Origin: Rhodococcus sp. Z13
Lineage (GTDB): Bacteria > Actinomycetota > Actinomycetes > Mycobacteriales > Mycobacteriaceae
Direction: 5' to 3'
Assembly: GCF_025837095.1 (NCBI RefSeq)
Contig: NZ_CP107551.1
Span: forward strand, 3,218,668-3,282,667
DNA length: 64,000 nt
Positions 52,040 to 60,856 of this stretch are shown in pieces. A program made the position numbers and the translations under genes. The notes below the pieces were generated by a model. The model did not search any database, was not told where the DNA came from, and saw nothing but the letters and a program-made list of their open reading frames with translations. Position 1 is the stretch's first letter, and every line of letters begins with the position of its first letter.

Positions 52040-53518
52040 ATGACTTCTGTGCGTGTGCGATCCGGGCCGGCGGGTTCGGTAGGTGCGCCGGCACTGTGCC
52101 GGATCACAGTGCTCGCCCGTCACACGGAGGTCGATCTCGCGTTGCCGGTGGATGTTCCGGTGGCCCTTCTGCTGCCGGGTCTCGTCGATCTCGTGGCGGG
52201 GCACCGGCGGGACAACGAGTTCGACGCGACACCGGAACGCACCCGGCCCGACGCCTGGACCCTCGGCCGCCTCGGGCGGGAGCCGCTGTCCGGCGCCCTG
52301 ACCCTCGACGAGCACGGAATCCGCGACGGGGAGATGCTGGTTCTCGGTGATGCCGGCTCACCTGCTCCCCCACCGCTCTTCGACGACGTGATGTACAGCG
52401 TCGCAGCGTCGGACCGGGAGTCGGTGCCGTGGGGTTCCGGGCCCGCGGGTCTGATCGCGGCGATCCTGGCCCCGCTCACGGTCGCCGTAGGCTGTGCGCC
52501 GTCGCTGTTCCTGCCCGACGGCATCACCCGGATCGTGACGGGCGTGGTGTGTGCGGCACTGTCACTGGTGCTCGTCCCCACCTCCGCGATCCTCACCCGC
52601 CTGCACGGCGACGACCGCACCGCGACCGCCGTCGGACTGTGCTCGCTCCCAACGGCGTTCACCGCCGGTGCGGTGCTGGTGCCCGGCGGGATCGGCGCTC
52701 CCGGACTGCTTCTCGGAGCCACGCTCACCGGGGTGGTCGCGGTGTTCGCGCTGCGGGTCGTGCGCACGGGGGTGACCGTGTTCACCGCTCTCGCCGCGAT
52801 CTCGGCCGCCCTGGCACTCGGCAGCGTCCTCGCCACGACCCTGGACGTGGGTGTGCGGGCGCTCGGGGCCGGTGGCGTCGTGGCGGCGGTGGTGCTCGCC
52901 GGGCTGGCGCCCCGGCTGGCGGGTGTCGCCGCGCGCCTGCCGATCCCCTCCGTGCCCGCGCCCGGCGCTCCTCTGGACCCGGAAACCACGGGCGACGGGA
53001 CCGCGGGGAGCGGGGCAACGGGCAGCGGGACCGAACTTCCCTCCCTGGACGAACTCGAGGCCCGAGCGGCACGAGCACGCGCCTACCTCACCGGTGTGCT
53101 CTACGCGGTGGTGGCGCTCGCGACCGCCGGAGCCTGGCTCGCGGCGCTCCCCGTGGACGGTGATCCCTTCCTCCCCGGTATCGGGCTCGGGGTCGCGGCG
53201 GCGGCGGTGCTGATGTTCCGGGGCCGCACGTACACCGCGGCGGCGCAGGCGGCGCCGCTGGTGGCCGGGGGTGCGGTGCTGCTGCTCGGTCTGCTCGCCG
53301 GGGCCGCCGTCTTCGCGGTGGCGCCCCCGTGGGTCGTGTTCGGGGCGGCGGTCACGTCGGCGTGCGGGGCGTTCCTGCTGGGTGTGGTCGCACCACGGCG
53401 CACGTTCACGCCGGTGCACCGCCGGATCGCCGAGATCGTCGAGTACGCGTGCATCGCGGCGGTCGTACCGTCGGCGTGCTGGGTGGCCGATCTCTACTCG
53501 GCCGTGCGGGGTCTGTGA
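52040..53518 (+). CDS. eccD4: ESX-4 membrane channel protein EccD4
   Basis: A 492-residue protein with an N-terminal ubiquitin-like domain (about 15-100, CRITVLARHTEVDLALPVDVPVALLLPGLVDLV) and about eleven membrane helices, the core of the type VII pore. A soluble loop with GTAGSGATGSGTELPSLDELEARAARAR interrupts the helices. ATG at 52040. Its stop overlaps the mycP4 start (GTGA at 53515-53518). Confidence 0.94.
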   Translation: MTSVRVRSGPAGSVGAPALCRITVLARHTEVDLALPVDVPVALLLPGLVDLVAGHRRDNEFDATPERTRPDAWTLGRLGREPLSGALTLDEHGIRDGEMLVLGDAGSPAPPPLFDDVMYSVAASDRESVPWGSGPAGLIAAILAPLTVAVGCAPSLFLPDGITRIVTGVVCAALSLVLVPTSAILTRLHGDDRTATAVGLCSLPTAFTAGAVLVPGGIGAPGLLLGATLTGVVAVFALRVVRTGVTVFTALAAISAALALGSVLATTLDVGVRALGAGGVVAAVVLAGLAPRLAGVAARLPIPSVPAPGAPLDPETTGDGTAGSGATGSGTELPSLDELEARAARARAYLTGVLYAVVALATAGAWLAALPVDGDPFLPGIGLGVAAAAVLMFRGRTYTAAAQAAPLVAGGAVLLLGLLAGAAVFAVAPPWVVFGAAVTSACGAFLLGVVAPRRTFTPVHRRIAEIVEYACIAAVVPSACWVADLYSAVRGL

Positions 53519-54873
53519 GGGTGCGGTCGCTCCGCGGTGGTGCCGCCGTCGTCGTGGCGTTCCTTCTGGGAGGCGGGTCCGCCGCCGCGGCACCCCCGGT
53601 GCCCGATCCGTCGCTGCTGCCGTCCGGCGCGGTGGCGGCGCCTCCCGAACCGACCGAGCAACGGGTCCTGTGTGCGGAGCTGCCCGACGCTCCCGACGAC
53701 CCGCAGGTCCCGGCCGCGCAGCGGATCCTCGACTTCGCATCGGTCTGGCCGATCACCCGCGGGGAAGGGCAGCTGGTGGCGGTGATCGACACCGGGGTTC
53801 GTCCGCATCCGCGTCTGCCGGAGGTCTCTCCCGGTGGCGACTTCGTGACCTCCGGCGACGGCACCGACGACTGCGATGCGCACGGCACACTCGTCGCCGG
53901 TCTGATCGCGGCGCAGCCGCGTCCCGAGTCCGGTTTCTCCGGAGGTGCCCCCGGTGTGAAACTGCTCGCGATCCGGCAGTCCAGTGGTCATTTCGCCGAT
54001 CGGTCCCGTTCGGACGACGACGCCGCGCGCAACGCCTCGGGTTACGGGGACGTGCGTACGCTGGCGATGGCGGTGCGGCGCGCGGCAGCCCTCGGTGCGA
54101 CGGTCATCAACATCTCGGAGGTCGCGTGCCGGAACGTCGTCGAGGGTCTCGCGGACGGTCCGCTCGGCGCCGCGGTGCAGTACGCCACCGAGGTGGAGGA
54201 CGCGGTGGTCGTCGCGGCGGCCGGCAATCTCGACTCGTGCAGCGGCGGGAATCCGGGTTCGGTGGATCCGGCCGCTCCCGGGTCCGATCCGTGGGATTCG
54301 GTGGTCACGTTGGCGTCTCCGGCCTGGTACGACGACTACGTCCTGACCGTCGGTGCGGTGGAGGACGACGGCACCCCGGCGGACTACAGCCTGCCCGGAC
54401 CGTGGGTGGACGTCGCGGCACCCGGCAGCGTGTCGGTCTCCCTCAATCCGGGCACCGGCGGTCTCGCCGACCGGGTTCCCGGTCCGCAGGGGGCTCGGCC
54501 GGTGTCGGGGACGAGTTTCGCGACGCCCCTGGTCTCCGCGACCGTCGCGCTGGTGCGGGCGCATCATCCGCAGCTGAACGCCCGGGAGGTGATGGCGCGC
54601 ATCGAGGCGACCGCTCATCAACCCGCCGAGGGCTGGAATCCGCGGGTGGGTTACGGCGTCGTCGATCCCCTCGCGGCGGTCACCGCCCCGCTGCCGGCAC
54701 AGCGCGAGATCCCCGCTGCGCCGGTGCCCGTCGCCGAACCGGCCGCTCCCCCGCCGCCCGACACCCGGCCGCGCACGGTCGCGCTCGTCGCCTCCGCAGC
54801 GGTGGTGGCGGCTTCGGTCGCCGGTCTCGCCCTGGCGTCCCCGGCGCTGCGACGCGCGCGGGGTCGGGCCTGA
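53515..54873 (+). CDS. mycP4: Mycosin protease MycP4 (subtilisin family)
   Basis: A 452-residue membrane-anchored subtilase of the ESX-4 machine. It has a signal peptide (SLRGGAAVVVAFLLGGGSAAAA), catalytic D92 in AVIDTGV, H123 in CDAHGT, oxyanion N238 in AAGNLD and S334 in GTSFATP, and a C-terminal membrane helix (VALVASAAVVAASVAGLALA). Mycosins stabilise the complex and cut ESX substrates at the outer face of the membrane. GTG at 53515 is coupled to eccD4. Confidence 0.95.
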   Translation: MRVRSLRGGAAVVVAFLLGGGSAAAAPPVPDPSLLPSGAVAAPPEPTEQRVLCAELPDAPDDPQVPAAQRILDFASVWPITRGEGQLVAVIDTGVRPHPRLPEVSPGGDFVTSGDGTDDCDAHGTLVAGLIAAQPRPESGFSGGAPGVKLLAIRQSSGHFADRSRSDDDAARNASGYGDVRTLAMAVRRAAALGATVINISEVACRNVVEGLADGPLGAAVQYATEVEDAVVVAAAGNLDSCSGGNPGSVDPAAPGSDPWDSVVTLASPAWYDDYVLTVGAVEDDGTPADYSLPGPWVDVAAPGSVSVSLNPGTGGLADRVPGPQGARPVSGTSFATPLVSATVALVRAHHPQLNAREVMARIEATAHQPAEGWNPRVGYGVVDPLAAVTAPLPAQREIPAAPVPVAEPAAPPPPDTRPRTVALVASAAVVAASVAGLALASPALRRARGRA

Positions 54874-56343: not shown

Positions 56344-56378
56344 CTGTACGGCACGTTGTCTGCCGCAACACAGTACAG
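56344..56378. promoter_or_regulatory. Inverted repeat in the eccB4/eccE4 divergent promoter
   Basis: CTGTAC (56344-56349) and GTACAG (56373-56378) frame an inner GTTG/CAAC pair (56355-56358, 56366-56369). It is a possible operator for both genes. Confidence 0.4.
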
Positions 56379-56439
56379 TCCCCGTCGGGAAAACCGGCAT
56401 CGCGTCCGAATGCCTGCCGGTGGTCGTTCGGGGGGATAC

Positions 56440-58071
56440 ATGCAACGAGCCGCTGTGTCGTGGAGCGGGGACGTCGGGCTGCCGGTCGCGCAGTGTCTGG
56501 GGGTCGCGATCTGGGCCGCCGCTCTGGTTCTCGGCGCCTCGGTGCCGGTGGCGACGGGGATCGCCGTGGGTGCGGCCGGTATGTGCCTGGTGCGGGTGCG
56601 CGGCCGCGGTCTGTTCGATCTCGTCGTCTCGGCCGTGCGGTTCCGCTCCGCGCCGGTTCCGGTGCCCGGGCTGCTGCGCGATTTCACCCCGGCGGCGGGC
56701 GGTCCCGTCGGGTTGCGGTGGGACGGGCCGTTCGTGACCGCCGTGGTGGAGGTGCTGCCACCGGCGGGTCCGGTCGTCCGGCTCGGACGCGACAACGAGG
56801 AGACCGACGCGGTGCTTCCGCTCGGCGCGATCGCGGCGTGCCTGCGCCGCCACGACGTCGTGCTGGACGGGATCGATGTCGTCGTACACGGGCGGCGGGT
56901 GCACGACGGAACCCCGGCCGGTCGGGCCTACGCGCATCTCGTGGGGCCGCTTCCCGCCGCGGCGGATCGGGTGGTGCGGCTGGTCCTCCGGCTCGATGCC
57001 ACGAGCTGCCCGGAGGCGGTGGCACGCAGGGGCGGTGGCACCGAGGGGGTCGCCCGGACGGTGATCGCGGCCGCGCGCCGGGTGATTCGCGCGCTCGCGG
57101 ACGGGGGGTACGCCGCGCGGCTGCTGACCGCCCGCGAGATCGAGCAGGCCGCACTGCGGATCGCGCACGGTGTGCCGGTGACGGAGCTCGAGCAGACCCG
57201 GCGGCAGGTGCTGCTCCCGGTGGGTGCCGACACGGGCGGGGCGATCGATCCGCGCCGTGTCTGCCGGGCGACCCTCACGGCGGTGTGGAGCCGGGCCGCT
57301 CTGTCGTCGACGGTGGTGGTGCGGCTGCGGCCGGCCGAGCACGGAGCGGTCCGGGCGGGTGCGCTCGTCCGGTTCACCACGTCCGCCCCCGAAGCACCGA
57401 CGGTTCCGGGGCTGCGACCGTCCCACGGCCGTCATCGCGAATCCTTCACCGCGGCACTCCCCTTCGGTGTTCCCGGGCCGGAGTCGCTGGTGCCGTTGCG
57501 GGAGACGGCGCCGGAGGAACTGGATGCGCTCGCACTGCCGGCCGGTGGGTGCGGACAGCTGATCGGTTCGGACGACGACGGCCGGGCGGTCACCGCGCGC
57601 CTGACCGGGCCCGGCGTGCGATCGGTGTATCTGGCGGGTGAGTTGTACCTGGCGCAGCAGGTGGTGTTCCGGGCGGTGGCGGTGGGTGCTCGGGTCGTCC
57701 TGTACACCGACCGGCCGGTGGTCTGGCGCACGCTGACGTCCGGTGCGGCCGGGCCGGATCGGTTGCAGATCGCCGGGGAGCATCCCGACGACCGCGAGTT
57801 CGACACGGTCGTGTTCGACGGTGTCCGGCCCGTCTCGATTCCTCCGCACGTCACGGCGATCCACGTGCACTCGCATCCGGACGAGTGGCCGCGGGAGGCG
57901 CCGACGGTGTCGCTGCTGCAGCCGGGTGCCGTGGGAGACCGGGTGATGCTCGCCGGCGGTGGCACGCGTACCACCTTGAATCTGGTGACGATCGCGGAGG
58001 AGTCCGCGCATCTCGCGCGGTCGCGGGCGGTGGGGTTCGCGAGCGCCGCCGGGCCGGGTCAGCCCGGATAG
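56440..58071 (+). CDS. eccE4: ESX-4 protein EccE4
   Basis: A 543-residue EccE with two N-terminal membrane helices (about 17-50), then a cytoplasmic region. Conserved-looking segments include RVIRALADGGYAARLLTAREIEQA and TGPGVRSVYLAGELYLAQQVVFRAVA. EccE stabilises the outer edge of the type VII complex. M. tuberculosis ESX-4 lacks this gene, while M. abscessus and other relatives have it. ATG at 56440 has a GGGGGG site. Its last 13 bases overlap the convergent FMN-reductase gene. Confidence 0.88.
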   Translation: MQRAAVSWSGDVGLPVAQCLGVAIWAAALVLGASVPVATGIAVGAAGMCLVRVRGRGLFDLVVSAVRFRSAPVPVPGLLRDFTPAAGGPVGLRWDGPFVTAVVEVLPPAGPVVRLGRDNEETDAVLPLGAIAACLRRHDVVLDGIDVVVHGRRVHDGTPAGRAYAHLVGPLPAAADRVVRLVLRLDATSCPEAVARRGGGTEGVARTVIAAARRVIRALADGGYAARLLTAREIEQAALRIAHGVPVTELEQTRRQVLLPVGADTGGAIDPRRVCRATLTAVWSRAALSSTVVVRLRPAEHGAVRAGALVRFTTSAPEAPTVPGLRPSHGRHRESFTAALPFGVPGPESLVPLRETAPEELDALALPAGGCGQLIGSDDDGRAVTARLTGPGVRSVYLAGELYLAQQVVFRAVAVGARVVLYTDRPVVWRTLTSGAAGPDRLQIAGEHPDDREFDTVVFDGVRPVSIPPHVTAIHVHSHPDEWPREAPTVSLLQPGAVGDRVMLAGGGTRTTLNLVTIAEESAHLARSRAVGFASAAGPGQPG

Positions 58072-58631
58072 CGTCCGAGTTCGTGGCCGGCGCGCACCGT
58101 GCGGGCCCACCAAGCGATCTGGTCGAGCATGCGTTCGGCGCCGTCGATCGCGGCGTCGTCGGTGGTGGTGCCGTCGGGCGCGAAGGCGTGCTTGACGCGG
58201 TGGAAGCTCACCGATTGACGGACCGGCACCATATGGACCTCCACGAGCACCTGCCGTAACTGTTCGACCGCCCGCAGTCCGCCCGACAGGCCTCCGTAGG
58301 AAACGAAACCGACCGGCTTGGTTCGCCATTCGTGCTTGACCGTGTCGATGGCGGTCTTCAGGGCGGCGGGATAACCGTGGTTGTACTCGGAGGTGACGAC
58401 GACGAAGGCGTCCGCCGCGTCGATGCGCCGGGTGAACGCCTCGGCCTCGGGTCCGCCGGAGAGGTCCTGCGGGAGCGGGGTCTCGGCGAGGTCGAGGACA
58501 CGGACGTCGAACTCGGGGCGTTGCCGGGCGGTCGCGGCGAACCAGTTCGCGACGACGGGAGCGATGCGGCCGGCGCGGACGCTCGCGACGACGATCTCGA
58601 GCCGGAGGGGGTCGTGCGCTGCGGAGACCAT
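58059..58631 (-). CDS. NADPH-dependent FMN reductase family protein
   Basis: A 190-residue flavodoxin-like oxidoreductase. It begins LEIVVASVRAGRIAPVVANWFAATA (phosphate loop) and has VTSEYNHGYPAALKTAIDTVKHEW and FVSYGGLSGGLRAVEQLRQVL, typical of NADPH:FMN or quinone reductases. It probably acts in the cytoplasm on flavin, quinone or azo substrates. ATG at 58631. It is divergent from the small peptide gene and overlaps the end of eccE4 by 13 bases. Confidence 0.9.
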   Translation of the reverse strand: MVSAAHDPLRLEIVVASVRAGRIAPVVANWFAATARQRPEFDVRVLDLAETPLPQDLSGGPEAEAFTRRIDAADAFVVVTSEYNHGYPAALKTAIDTVKHEWRTKPVGFVSYGGLSGGLRAVEQLRQVLVEVHMVPVRQSVSFHRVKHAFAPDGTTTDDAAIDGAERMLDQIAWWARTVRAGHELGRYPG

Positions 58632-58733
58632 GCGGTCGATGTTAGGCGGGTCTCCCGCTTGTCCGGATCGGGTTCGATCGCGCCGCCGCACCCGGCAGTT
58701 CTTGTGATTCACGTTCGTCGCTTACCAGTCGGT

Positions 58734-58749
58734 CTGTGAAACATCACAG
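58734..58749. promoter_or_regulatory. Palindrome 1 upstream of the small peptide gene
   Basis: CTGTGA-AACA-TCACAG, 6-bp arms with a 4-base spacer. It resembles a CRP/GlxR site, but the spacer is 2 bases too short. Confidence 0.55.
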
Positions 58750-58796
58750 CGTCTCGCTTTGCATCGGAGCACGCCCGTGATCTTGAATCATCGATG

Positions 58797-58810
58797 TGGA
58801 CAAACGTCCA
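58797..58810. promoter_or_regulatory. Palindrome 2 upstream of the small peptide gene
   Basis: TGGAC-AAAC-GTCCA, extended by an AT/AT pair beyond one G-T position. It lies 26 bases before the peptide start and could be an operator or a leader hairpin. Confidence 0.55.
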
Positions 58811-58836
58811 TATCCGTATCGACTGGAGGTAATCCC

Positions 58837-58902
58837 ATGCTTCTCAGCTCCCTGGGCGATCTGCTCGAGCAGCTTCTCTCGGCTCTGAGCGCCCTGCTCT
58901 GA
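58837..58902 (+). CDS. 21-residue Leu-rich amphipathic peptide
   Basis: A very short gene with an excellent TGGAGG ribosome-binding site 7 bases before ATG and a strong terminator 27 bases after the stop. The peptide starts MLLSSLGDLLEQ and ends in LSALSALL. Leu is at 2, 3, 6, 9, 10, 13, 14, 17, 20 and 21, and polar or small residues (S4, S5, G7, D8, E11, Q12, S15, S18) fill the other face, so it should form an amphipathic helix of net negative side-chain charge. It has no signal peptide and is not recognised by me. It faces the mycoloyltransferase gene. Possible roles are a secreted or mycomembrane peptide, a phenol-soluble-modulin-like peptide, or a membrane toxin. Confidence 0.65.
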   Translation: MLLSSLGDLLEQLLSALSALL

Positions 58903-58929
58903 TCCGACTCTCGACACAGGTCGACGAGA

Positions 58930-58968
58930 AAGGGGCGGGTGGGAATCCTCGATTCCCACCCGCCCCTT
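58930..58968. terminator. Bidirectional terminator between the peptide gene and the mycoloyltransferase
   Basis: AAGGGGCGGGTGGGAATC and its exact complement form an 18-bp stem with a CTC loop. It is 27 bases after the peptide stop and 14 bases past the mycoloyltransferase stop. Confidence 0.95.
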
Positions 58969-58982
58969 CGTCGTCGCCGGCC

Positions 58983-60023
58983 TCAGGCCCCGATGGCCTC
59001 GGCGAGCACGGGCCACGAGTCGTGCAGCGCGTCCTCCCAGTAACCCCAGGTGTGGGTGCCGTCGGGACGGACCGAGTAGGTGGCGGTCACACCCGCCTGA
59101 TCCAGTGCCGTGCGCAGACGGTTGGTGCAGTCGTGCACGTTGGCCTCGATGATCCCGAGGGTGGCGACGTCGGGCAGCACCGCGACGCCGGACTGCTCCC
59201 ACGCCCGCAGTTCGACCTCACCCGGCATGCCGCTGCCGGCCGACACGAAGACGGCCTTGCCGCGCAGCTTCTCGGCATTGCGGACGACGTCCTGCTCGAC
59301 CCAGTGCGTCCCACGGATCGGACCCCACATGTTCTCCACCTCGCCGCCGCCCAGGGACACGACGATCTCCGCGTAGCGGGCACCGGCGGGCGAGGCGGTC
59401 TCCGCGCAACCGCTGTAGGAGGCGACACCCTCGTAGAGCTCCGGTGCCTTCTCGGCCAGGGCCAGCGCCGAGGTCGCCGACATCGACATGCCCGCGATCG
59501 CGTTGCGGCCGCTGGTGCCGAGCACGTCGTCGACCAGCGGGGGGATCTCCTTCGTCAGGAAGGTCTCCCACTTGTTGCGGCCGAGCACCGGATCGTCCTC
59601 GAGCCAGTCGGTGTAGTAGCTGAAGGCACCACCGATCGGCGTGACGACATTGACGTTCTTGTCGGAGAAGAACTCGACCACGTCGGTCTGCTCCCGCCAG
59701 TTCGCACGGTCCTGGCCACCACCGGCACCGTTGAGCAGGTACAGCACCGGCCGCGGCTCGCTGGTGTCCGCCGGACGGAGCACCTGCAGCTCGATGGTGC
59801 GGTCCATCGACGGCGAGTACACGAACAGCGACCAGTCCTGCTCGGTGTGCTTCTCGATGCGTTCGAGGGTCGCGGGCTGTGAGGCGGTCTCACCGGCAGC
59901 CGAGGCCGGCGCGCTCTCGGCGTGGGCGATCGCCGGTCCCGCCAGTGCGAGGGAGGACGCCGCCAGCGCCCCGATCGTCATCGCCAGTCCATACCGTCGT
60001 GCTCGCAAGCTCGTCCCTTTCAT
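58983..60023 (-). CDS. Antigen 85-type mycoloyltransferase (esterase family)
   Basis: A 346-residue secreted alpha/beta hydrolase of the antigen 85/Cmt family that moves mycolic acids onto arabinogalactan, trehalose or proteins outside the membrane. The signal peptide is about 1-35 ([27 protein letters not shown]). Nucleophile S180 lies in [12 protein letters not shown], the early YLLNGAGGG matches the oxyanion region, and the catalytic His is in [13 protein letters not shown]. The ATG start overlaps the truA stop by four bases, so translation may be coupled. In M. tuberculosis this interval holds cutinase genes. Confidence 0.9.
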
Positions 60024-60856
60024 CCACAACACCCGGGCGTGATCGGCCCGCGCATCTCCCGCGTCGCAGCGTTACGCGCGGCCAAGTCCTCGTCAGCAGG
60101 GTAGTCGACGCGGACCAGTGACAGGCCGTGAGCCGGTGCCACCGCGACCGATGCCGCACGTTCGCGTTCGTCGAGCAGCCCGGTCATCCACTCCACCGTG
60201 CGCCGTCCCTCGCCCACCGCCAGCGCGGCACCGACGAGGCTGCGCACCATCGACCAGCAGAAGGCGTCGGCACTGACGTACGCCGTGAGGATGTCGTCCT
60301 CGTAGGTCCAGTCGAACCGTTGCAGTTCGCGCACCGTCGTCGCGCCCTCGCGTCGCTTGCAGAAGGCCGCGAAGTCGTGCAGACCCAGCAGCGAGCGCGA
60401 GGCGCGCTGCATCGCGTCGACGTCGACCTTCTTCGGCCACGCCACCGTGTCGCGGGCCCGCAGCGGCTCGGCACCGTAGACCGCGGTGGTCAGGCGGTAC
60501 TCGTAGTGCCGCCGGATCGCGGAGAAACGGGCGTCGAAGTGCTCCGGCGCCACCGAGATCCGGGTGACGCGCACGTCGCGCGGCAGGAAGCGGGCGAGCC
60601 GGCGCACCAGCCGCTCGAGGTCGTCGGGCAGCGCCGCGGTGGGTACGTCGACGTGGGCGACCTGGCCGGAGGCGTGCACCCCCGCGTCGGTGCGCCCGGC
60701 GACGGTGAGCAGCACCGGGGTGCGGACGATCGCGGAGAGCTTCTCCTCGATCTCGCCGCACACCGTCCGGCGGCCCGGCTGCCGGGCCCAGCCCGAGAAG
60801 TCGGTGCCGTCGTAGGAGATGTCGAGTCGCAGACGTGTCGTCTCGTGAGAAGCCAC
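60020..60856 (-). CDS. truA: tRNA pseudouridine synthase A
   Basis: A 278-residue TruA that makes pseudouridine at tRNA positions 38-40. The catalytic Asp is in [19 protein letters not shown]. Other family segments are [30 protein letters not shown] and [23 protein letters not shown] at 60856 gives the right N-terminus, but this codon lies inside the left arm of the rplQ hairpin. It follows rplQ and overlaps the mycoloyltransferase start. Confidence 0.95.

Follow-up and report, generated by a model that had tools for sequence, protein, structure and literature searches.

A 64,000-nucleotide stretch of the 4.53-Mb genome of Rhodococcus sp. Z13, referred to as the window throughout, carries a 21-codon peptide gene between an FMN reductase gene and the mycoloyltransferase gene mycT, with truA located beyond mycT. 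The features at this locus, in window coordinates, are the following.

58059..58631, minus strand: upstream neighbour, from the NADPH-dependent FMN reductase family (Pfam FMN_red)
58734..58749, plus strand: palindrome 1, CTGTGA-AACA-TCACAG, window copy only, by eye
58759..58788, plus strand: possible sigma-70-type promoter TTGCAT-18-TTGAAT, putative, by eye
58797..58810, plus strand: palindrome 2, TGGAC-AAAC-GTCCA (TGGACAAACGTCCA), operator or 5'-UTR hairpin
58824..58830, plus strand: ribosome-binding site TGGAGGT, GGAGG-to-ATG distance 7 nt
58837..58902, plus strand: 21-codon peptide gene, ATG to TGA, predicted product MLLSSLGDLLEQLLSALSALL (ORF, relatives, synonymous excess)
58849..58851, plus strand: Ser5 codon, candidate O-mycoloylation site
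58930..58968, no strand assigned: hairpin with 18-bp perfect arms at 58930-58947 and 58951-58968, probable (bidirectional) terminator
58983..60032, minus strand: mycT, mycoloyltransferase of the MytC/Cmt1 class, signal sequence by eye, triad aligned with Cmt1
60020..60853, minus strand: truA, used as synteny anchor

An earlier note on this DNA had read a TGGAGG ribosome-binding site, an ATG at 58837 and 21 residues followed by a stop, and this reading proved exact to the base, the window sequence placing the stop codon TGA at 58900-58902. The leucine positions that it listed match those of MLLSSLGDLLEQLLSALSALL. The 18-bp perfect terminator that it described holds as a perfect hairpin (-53.1 kcal/mol, z -9.8, none of 200 shuffles as good). 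It has no T-run on the plus strand, where the tail reads CGTCGTCG. As it lacks this T-run and is sited between convergent genes, the hairpin may serve both.

Both upstream palindromes reported earlier do exist. Palindrome 2 pairs over 9 bp as RNA, and the two palindromes as RNA were unexceptional against shuffled sequences, of which 9 of 200 (z -1.7) and 21 of 200 (z -1.2) did as well. Palindrome 1 was absent, by eye, from the upstream regions of the relatives compared, and palindrome 2 is present in 6 of the 10 copies of the gene found 3' of mycT at locus A, defined below. TTGAAT precedes the latter palindrome by 6 nt in three loci (L210, L211 and L212) and by 8 nt in the window. One further site of the palindrome 2 pattern, TGGACNNACGTCCA, was found in the Z13 genome, lying by eye between oxidoreductase-like and TetR-type genes with no link, and palindrome 2 was rejected as the mark of a regulon. 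Palindrome 1 was considered as a CRP/GlxR site and also rejected, since sites of that family have a spacing of 6 as opposed to the spacer of 4 seen here.

In relatives with mycT (L049-L065), genes that by eye resemble those for a TetR protein and an acyl-CoA dehydrogenase, joined in several cases by one for a phosphotransferase, stand between the FMN reductase gene and mycT. This block is absent from the window genome (window 58632-58733). Near the peptide locus, 56356-58071 encodes a protein matching the type VII secretion component EccE (NCBIfam TIGR03923, 215 bits), and a subtilisin-like ORF, mycosin-like by eye, is located at 53329-54873.

Conservation of the gene at locus A

A DNA similarity search of 18 genomes of the genus matched the Z13 genome alone. 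Relatives were reached via synteny: truA was found in 18/18 genomes, and among the 17 relatives whose regions were compared mycT adjoins truA in 13 (locus A). The 330 bp located 3' of mycT were scanned on the opposite strand for ORFs of 15-60 aa having a ribosome-binding site, of any composition. This returned a 21-codon ORF with Ser5 in the convergent place in 9 of the 13 relatives, in each case as the sole ORF in the scan with a ribosome-binding site, and with the window included the 21-mer is present in 10 of 14 loci. The search of related genomes proposed in the earlier note was thereby borne out, with frame, length, Ser5 and ribosome-binding site all kept in these nine. In the other four the scan gave one unrelated ORF (L050) or none (L052, L054 and L061). 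Inspection by eye revealed peptide remnants with the 5' part deleted in L050, with the start lost and the 3' part gone in L052 and cut short after eight residues in L054, and no remnant was seen by eye in L061. mycT is retained both in the three loci with a broken peptide (L050, L052, L054) and in the one without it (L061).

Alignment of the nine distinct peptides that were found first, in which a serine was not demanded, gave M1, L3, S5, L6, L14, L17 and L20 as invariant positions. Close relatives were compared in nine disjoint pairs, of which only some have orthology shown by synteny and of which those found by profile favour conserved proteins; 32 of 43 changes were synonymous where 31% was expected (p 4.6e-9). 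The four locus-A pairs alone gave 10 synonymous changes out of 15 (28.5% expected, p 0.0024), and the equal synonymous and non-synonymous rates that had been named earlier as counter-evidence were thus not seen. Identity within the nine pairs was 0.85-0.98 over the coding region and 0.25-0.93 over the 60-bp flanks, the comparison being ungapped and hence understating flanks with indels.

A single 21-codon ORF is common, and the DNA match in the own genome only, among 18, is what a chance ORF would give; the series of conserved relatives refutes this explanation in practice. To judge from these sequence comparisons, the 21-mer ORF of the window is a gene and not a product of chance. It is self-contained, as had been claimed, frame and length being conserved at locus A alongside the synonymous excess. 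The strong hairpin in common with the convergent mycT gene also allows a functional RNA, either a small RNA or a 3' regulator of mycT, in which the ORF would be incidental or secondary. The synonymous excess, the exact length and ribosome-binding site in every intact locus-A copy and the existence of copies with different neighbours make this very improbable, and each of the seven matches in an Rfam search was far below the gathering score.

A multi-locus family and its promoters

A single-sequence protein search gave matches that were mostly inside long frames, the two true ones having E values of 2.1 and 2.5, and was too weak, so that profiles were needed. Profile A1, built from the nine distinct peptides found first and run on 401 genomes of the taxonomic family, matched 97 of these at E<=1, many within long frames, and produced strong matches also away from mycT. 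A wider profile, A4, was run on the 18 genus genomes at E<=0.5 and gave matches in 15, with a real member counted in 13; two genomes (G010 and G014) had matches only within long frames. The collection amounted to 25 copies, of which 24 are in 13 genus genomes and one is in another genus (G086, E 0.001), and these represent 20 distinct sequences, 21, 28 or 32 aa in length. Ten copies are at locus A and 15 are elsewhere. The latter include locus B, beside an enoyl-CoA hydratase-like gene (by eye) in the Z13 genome and six others, and further copies beside a kinase-like gene and at other sites, with tandem copies in G006. The second family member of the Z13 genome is MILGSLAATLAGVLAPVLGLLAGVGILL at C1:3899498. 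For all 15 copies outside locus A, no mycT was present in the 1.5-4 kb covered to either side, or in the shorter stretch available where one copy is close to the end of its contig. Strict dependence on mycT was rejected on account of these 15 of 25 copies and of the persistence of mycT where the peptide decays. On this evidence the 21-mer belongs to a Rhodococcus family spread over several loci, M-x-L-G-S-L..., of 21-32 aa.

Ser5 is the one polar residue common to all family members collected, to be read with the caution that the collecting regular expression demanded it and that profile matches off locus A were rewarded for it. It is the sole serine in 14 of the 20 distinct peptides. The earlier suggestion of S4, S5, S15 or S18 as a target is accordingly narrowed to S5, shared throughout; S4 is private to the window copy, and S15 and S18 recur in only two of the remaining 19 distinct sequences. 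A GGAG-type ribosome-binding site precedes 24 of the 25 copies, and a perfect inverted repeat of at least 11 bp follows 20 (at least 7 bp, 21), counted with no shuffle control.

Searches of Pfam, NCBIfam and PHROGs with the window 21-mer gave no match at E<=1, and the 28-mer of the Z13 genome had one PHROG match, at chance level (E 0.5). PDB profile matches of the 21-mer to coronavirus nsp9 (E 0.16-0.23, 10 positions) were taken as chance. Five literal fragments from the 21-mer family and from the 25- and 30-mer families described below were not found in a literature mostly without subscription papers, in which an earlier mention is possible. Nothing of the kind stood out among the titles and abstract starts listed on the topic, again mostly without subscription papers. 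The family is apparently undescribed.

The clean amphipathic helix of the earlier note was recovered for the window copy, which has a hydrophobic moment of 0.41 compared to a shuffle mean of 0.14, the fraction of 2000 shuffles that reached this value being 0.000. It was not recovered for the family. The moment is only 0.11-0.17 in 14 of the 20 distinct members, a few of which still exceed most of their own shuffles, and strong amphipathicity is therefore not the trait that the family has in common. This bears on the possibility that a genuine, conserved peptide lacking a leader is secreted or bound to a membrane with no mycolate attached, for instance as a surfactant-like peptide, in which Ser5 would serve helix capping or packing. 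Staphylococcal phenol-soluble modulins are leaderless amphipathic peptides of about 20-25 aa. The window copy resembles them in size, in the lack of a leader and in amphipathicity, and the 21-residue length, the multi-locus distribution, the tandem copies in G006 and the 15 of 25 copies off mycT would all suit such a peptide. The likeness is one of description, and the family departs from it by its richness in leucine, its single invariant serine and a net charge of 0 to -2, which is not cationic; the window copy, unlike the modulins, lies beside a mycolate enzyme. The strongly amphipathic leaderless helix typical of these peptides was not found across the family, given the 14 weakly amphipathic members, and a family-wide surfactant trait was rejected on the same ground. 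Together with the sigma-D-like promoters and the clustering of tiny peptides 3' of MytC-class genes, both described below, this leaves a peptide free of mycoloylation rather unlikely.

In many copies away from mycT, the motif GTAAC[A/G]-N16-CGA[T/C] is situated 113-132 nt before the start. In its strict form it was found in 6 of 25 upstream regions (shuffle mean 0.04), none of them among the ten at locus A, window included, and six among the 15 elsewhere. The core form was found in 11 of 25 (shuffle mean 0.4). The motif agrees with that of sigma-D in Corynebacterium glutamicum, given as -35 GTAAC(A/G) and -10 GAT in the available text of PMC6338062, except for GAC in three of the six. According to the same source sigma-D directly controls cmt1, and the sigma-D regulon of C. 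glutamicum is said in part of PMC11175481 to cover porA, porH and mycoloyltransferases, and ProtX to increase upon deletion of rsdA, when sigma-D is free. The strict pattern occurs 21 times in the Z13 genome as opposed to 5 for a reversed control, and single sites are consequently no proof. It was found upstream of 7 of 122 mycT rows, and no sigma-D-like motif was found upstream of the 25-, 30- and 36-mers described below. The window copy has palindrome 2 in its place.

Envelope-stress-type promoters at several copies, very hydrophobic short peptides with their own ribosome-binding site and hairpin, and loss of the gene in some relatives would also be expected of a small stress or toxin-like peptide of the type I kind, acting on the cytoplasmic membrane under envelope stress. 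The conserved Ser5 and the mycT synteny are unexpected for a toxin, however, and the Rfam search for an antisense RNA gave no match at the gathering score. We consider such a peptide improbable.

MytC-class enzymes and other tiny peptides

The best solved relative of mycT is Cmt1 (8qhf/4h18, E 2e-79), with PS1/MytA at 3e-44 and Ag85A at 1.5e-27, and its best named loci are those of R. gordoniae and Rhodococcus sp. CH91 (78% identity). mycT aligns with MytC/Cmt1 (cg0413) over most of its length and keeps the Ser-Glu-His triad, aligned with Ser189, Glu310 and His341 of Cmt1 (numbering from the available text of PMC11927696). A tree built on 116 rows split 113 of them, the window mycT and Cmt1 among these, from PS1 and two paralogs of the Z13 genome with support of 100/100, subject to a long-branch warning, and 13 locus-A enzymes formed one group (100/98). 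Other Rhodococcus enzymes are closer to Cmt1 than mycT is in this tree. One insertion of mycT, where the MytC-specific loop for protein substrates may lie, is 8 residues shorter than in Cmt1 and 5 longer than in PS1. Judged by alignment and tree, the window mycT is an enzyme of the MytC/Cmt1 class with a predicted activity. Cmt1 is named as a protein O-mycoloyltransferase in the parts of PMC11066868 and PMC11175481 available. Orthologues of MytC have been reported from Rhodococcus, Nocardia and Gordonia, with no substrate named there in the portions of the literature accessible.

In order to describe the surroundings of other enzymes of this class, 80 stretches around enzyme matches, chosen among the matches listed, were examined. 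On the 3' side other mycT clades carry either a tandem pair of 25 aa (MGSTT...) and 30 aa (MGSI...) or a type of 35-36 aa. A fixed filter (18-40 aa, ribosome-binding site, hydropathy of at least 0.8, within 500 bp) was applied to the surroundings of 119 enzyme rows and returned 34 ORFs on the 3' side, distributed over 25 loci, and one at 5', where the control is not perfectly matched since the 5' stretch of locus A is truA coding DNA. The 34 include two pairs that are one gene counted twice (L002 and L159), two ORFs that look spurious and two entries that are one ORF read from different starts. The one ORF returned at 5', MGSITNGVGAISGLLDLITLVAPQIITGSL in L126, is a member of the 30-mer family on the strand opposite to mycT. 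In the Z13 genome itself, the region C1:3603408-3603880 (L159) has the tandem tiny genes MGSTTITELITFIFSLLSQTAEFFS and MGSISNGLDAIGQLVQLVLLIMPNLLTSSL located 3' of a MytC-class gene on the same strand.

The 30-mers have an invariant serine that is penultimate in six of seven aligned rows and last in the seventh. A search of 401 genomes with a 30-mer profile produced 18 matches at E<=3e-5, 16 of which have mycT within 1.5 kb; six of the 18 are seeds, 10 of the 12 others have mycT, and three lie in one region of G065. Of the two exceptions, L195 is situated where its contig ends, and L196 lacks a mycT over about 3 kb. The 36-mer profile matched 11 of 301 genomes at E<=0.05, five of them strongly, and a PDB profile search with the 36-mer gave no match.

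Several side observations were made at these loci. In another MytC-class clade (L108, L140, L143 and L148) a conserved peptide of 35-36 aa, MEIIELIGSALELLGGTELLGTLL..., lies about 400 bp 3' of mycT. The five genomes with a strong 36-mer match have no 30-mer match. Two loci (L247 and L248) encode MGSTTVVDVVKFIFETFGNMSSFLS and MGSTTVVEIVDFFFDLLSQSATFFS, which are similar to the 25-mers; mycT was not found in the DNA covered at either, L248 starting at a contig end. At three Nocardia mycT loci (L036, L039 and L038) a very hydrophobic ORF of 25 or 32 aa, with a GTG start in two, is convergent with mycT; no truA is present in the DNA covered, and these ORFs are possible distant relatives of the 21-mer.

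Mycoloylation as a possible fate of the peptides

PorA and PorH of C. glutamicum, of 45 and 57 aa and O-mycoloylated at Ser15 and Ser56, are helical, tiny and without a signal sequence, the window 21-mer being likewise tiny and signal-less and probably helical, and they depend on Cmt1/MytC. They are encoded together in the manner of the Rhodococcus 25- and 30-aa pair beside a MytC-class gene. The 21-mer is shorter, has its serine near the N terminus and is likened to them by description and not by sequence. The same kind of likeness extends to ProtX (cg2875, 38 aa), tiny and without a signal, which shares a penultimate serine with the 30-aa family and differs in this from the 21-mer with its Ser5. 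The sites recorded in the accessible parts of the sources are Ser37 of 38 in ProtX (PMC5310785) and S56 in the 57-aa PorH (PMC12632848). MGSISNGLDAIGQLVQLVLLIMPNLLTSSL has a penultimate serine like ProtX and PorH, and the tandem peptides MGSTTITELITFIFSLLSQTAEFFS and MGSISNGLDAIGQLVQLVLLIMPNLLTSSL are perhaps the stronger mycoloylation candidates. The MspA-type channels PorARr and PorBRr of R. ruber are cell-wall channels of the same genus, but with 213-267 aa, a signal peptide and PF09203 they have nothing in common with the 21-mer in size or design, as far as the available text of PMC9233653 describes them.

The reading that we favour, with a probability of roughly 0.48, is that the monocistronic gene encodes a peptide that is exported without a signal, mycoloylated at Ser5 by a MytC/Cmt1-class enzyme and placed in the mycomembrane as a structural or channel helix. 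The peptide would presumably be translated from its own ribosome-binding site. As 21 residues leave no room for a Sec or Tat signal, it would, by analogy, leave the cell without a signal sequence by whatever route PorA, PorH and ProtX take. Ser5 would then be esterified with mycolic acid from trehalose monomycolate by a mycoloyltransferase of this class. The enzyme may be the neighbouring mycT or a paralog, given the many copies that have no mycT next to them. The acylated peptide would finally form a short helix within the mycomembrane, in a structural or channel-forming capacity. The mycoloylation link drawn in the earlier note thus finds support in the MytC/Cmt1-class neighbour, in the tiny peptides 3' of related enzymes and in the sigma-D-like promoters elsewhere, but adjacency to mycT turned out to be one context among several.

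The weaker steps of mycoloylation are the site, Ser5, and the role, which may be that of a pore, a spacer or a stress peptide. Ser5 is near the start of the likely helix, and mapped O-mycoloylation sites lie in flexible Gly/Ser stretches according to the portion of PMC11066868 available. Mycoloylation is also argued against by the 15 of 25 copies without a nearby mycT, by the persistence of mycT without the peptide and by the missing sigma-D-like motif at locus A and for the 25-, 30- and 36-mers.

More tentatively, Rhodococcus and Nocardia might possess several unannotated families of signal-less peptides of 21-36 aa that are substrates of MytC-class enzymes and anchored through mycolate in the mycomembrane, with Ser5 as the modified residue of the 21-mers and the serine near the C terminus as that of the 30-mers. 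In the accessible literature the named O-mycoloylation substrates are corynebacterial, O-mycoloylation in M. smegmatis is mentioned in part of PMC11175481 and O-mycoloylation is called undemonstrated in mycobacteria in part of PMC11066868. If true, the proposal would extend protein O-mycoloylation to Rhodococcus and Nocardia with substrates smaller than corynebacterial PorA, PorH and ProtX, and would offer concrete, very small candidates having one invariant serine each. They would belong to a conserved class of genes that annotation is likely to miss, as no family-library model matches the window 21-mer.
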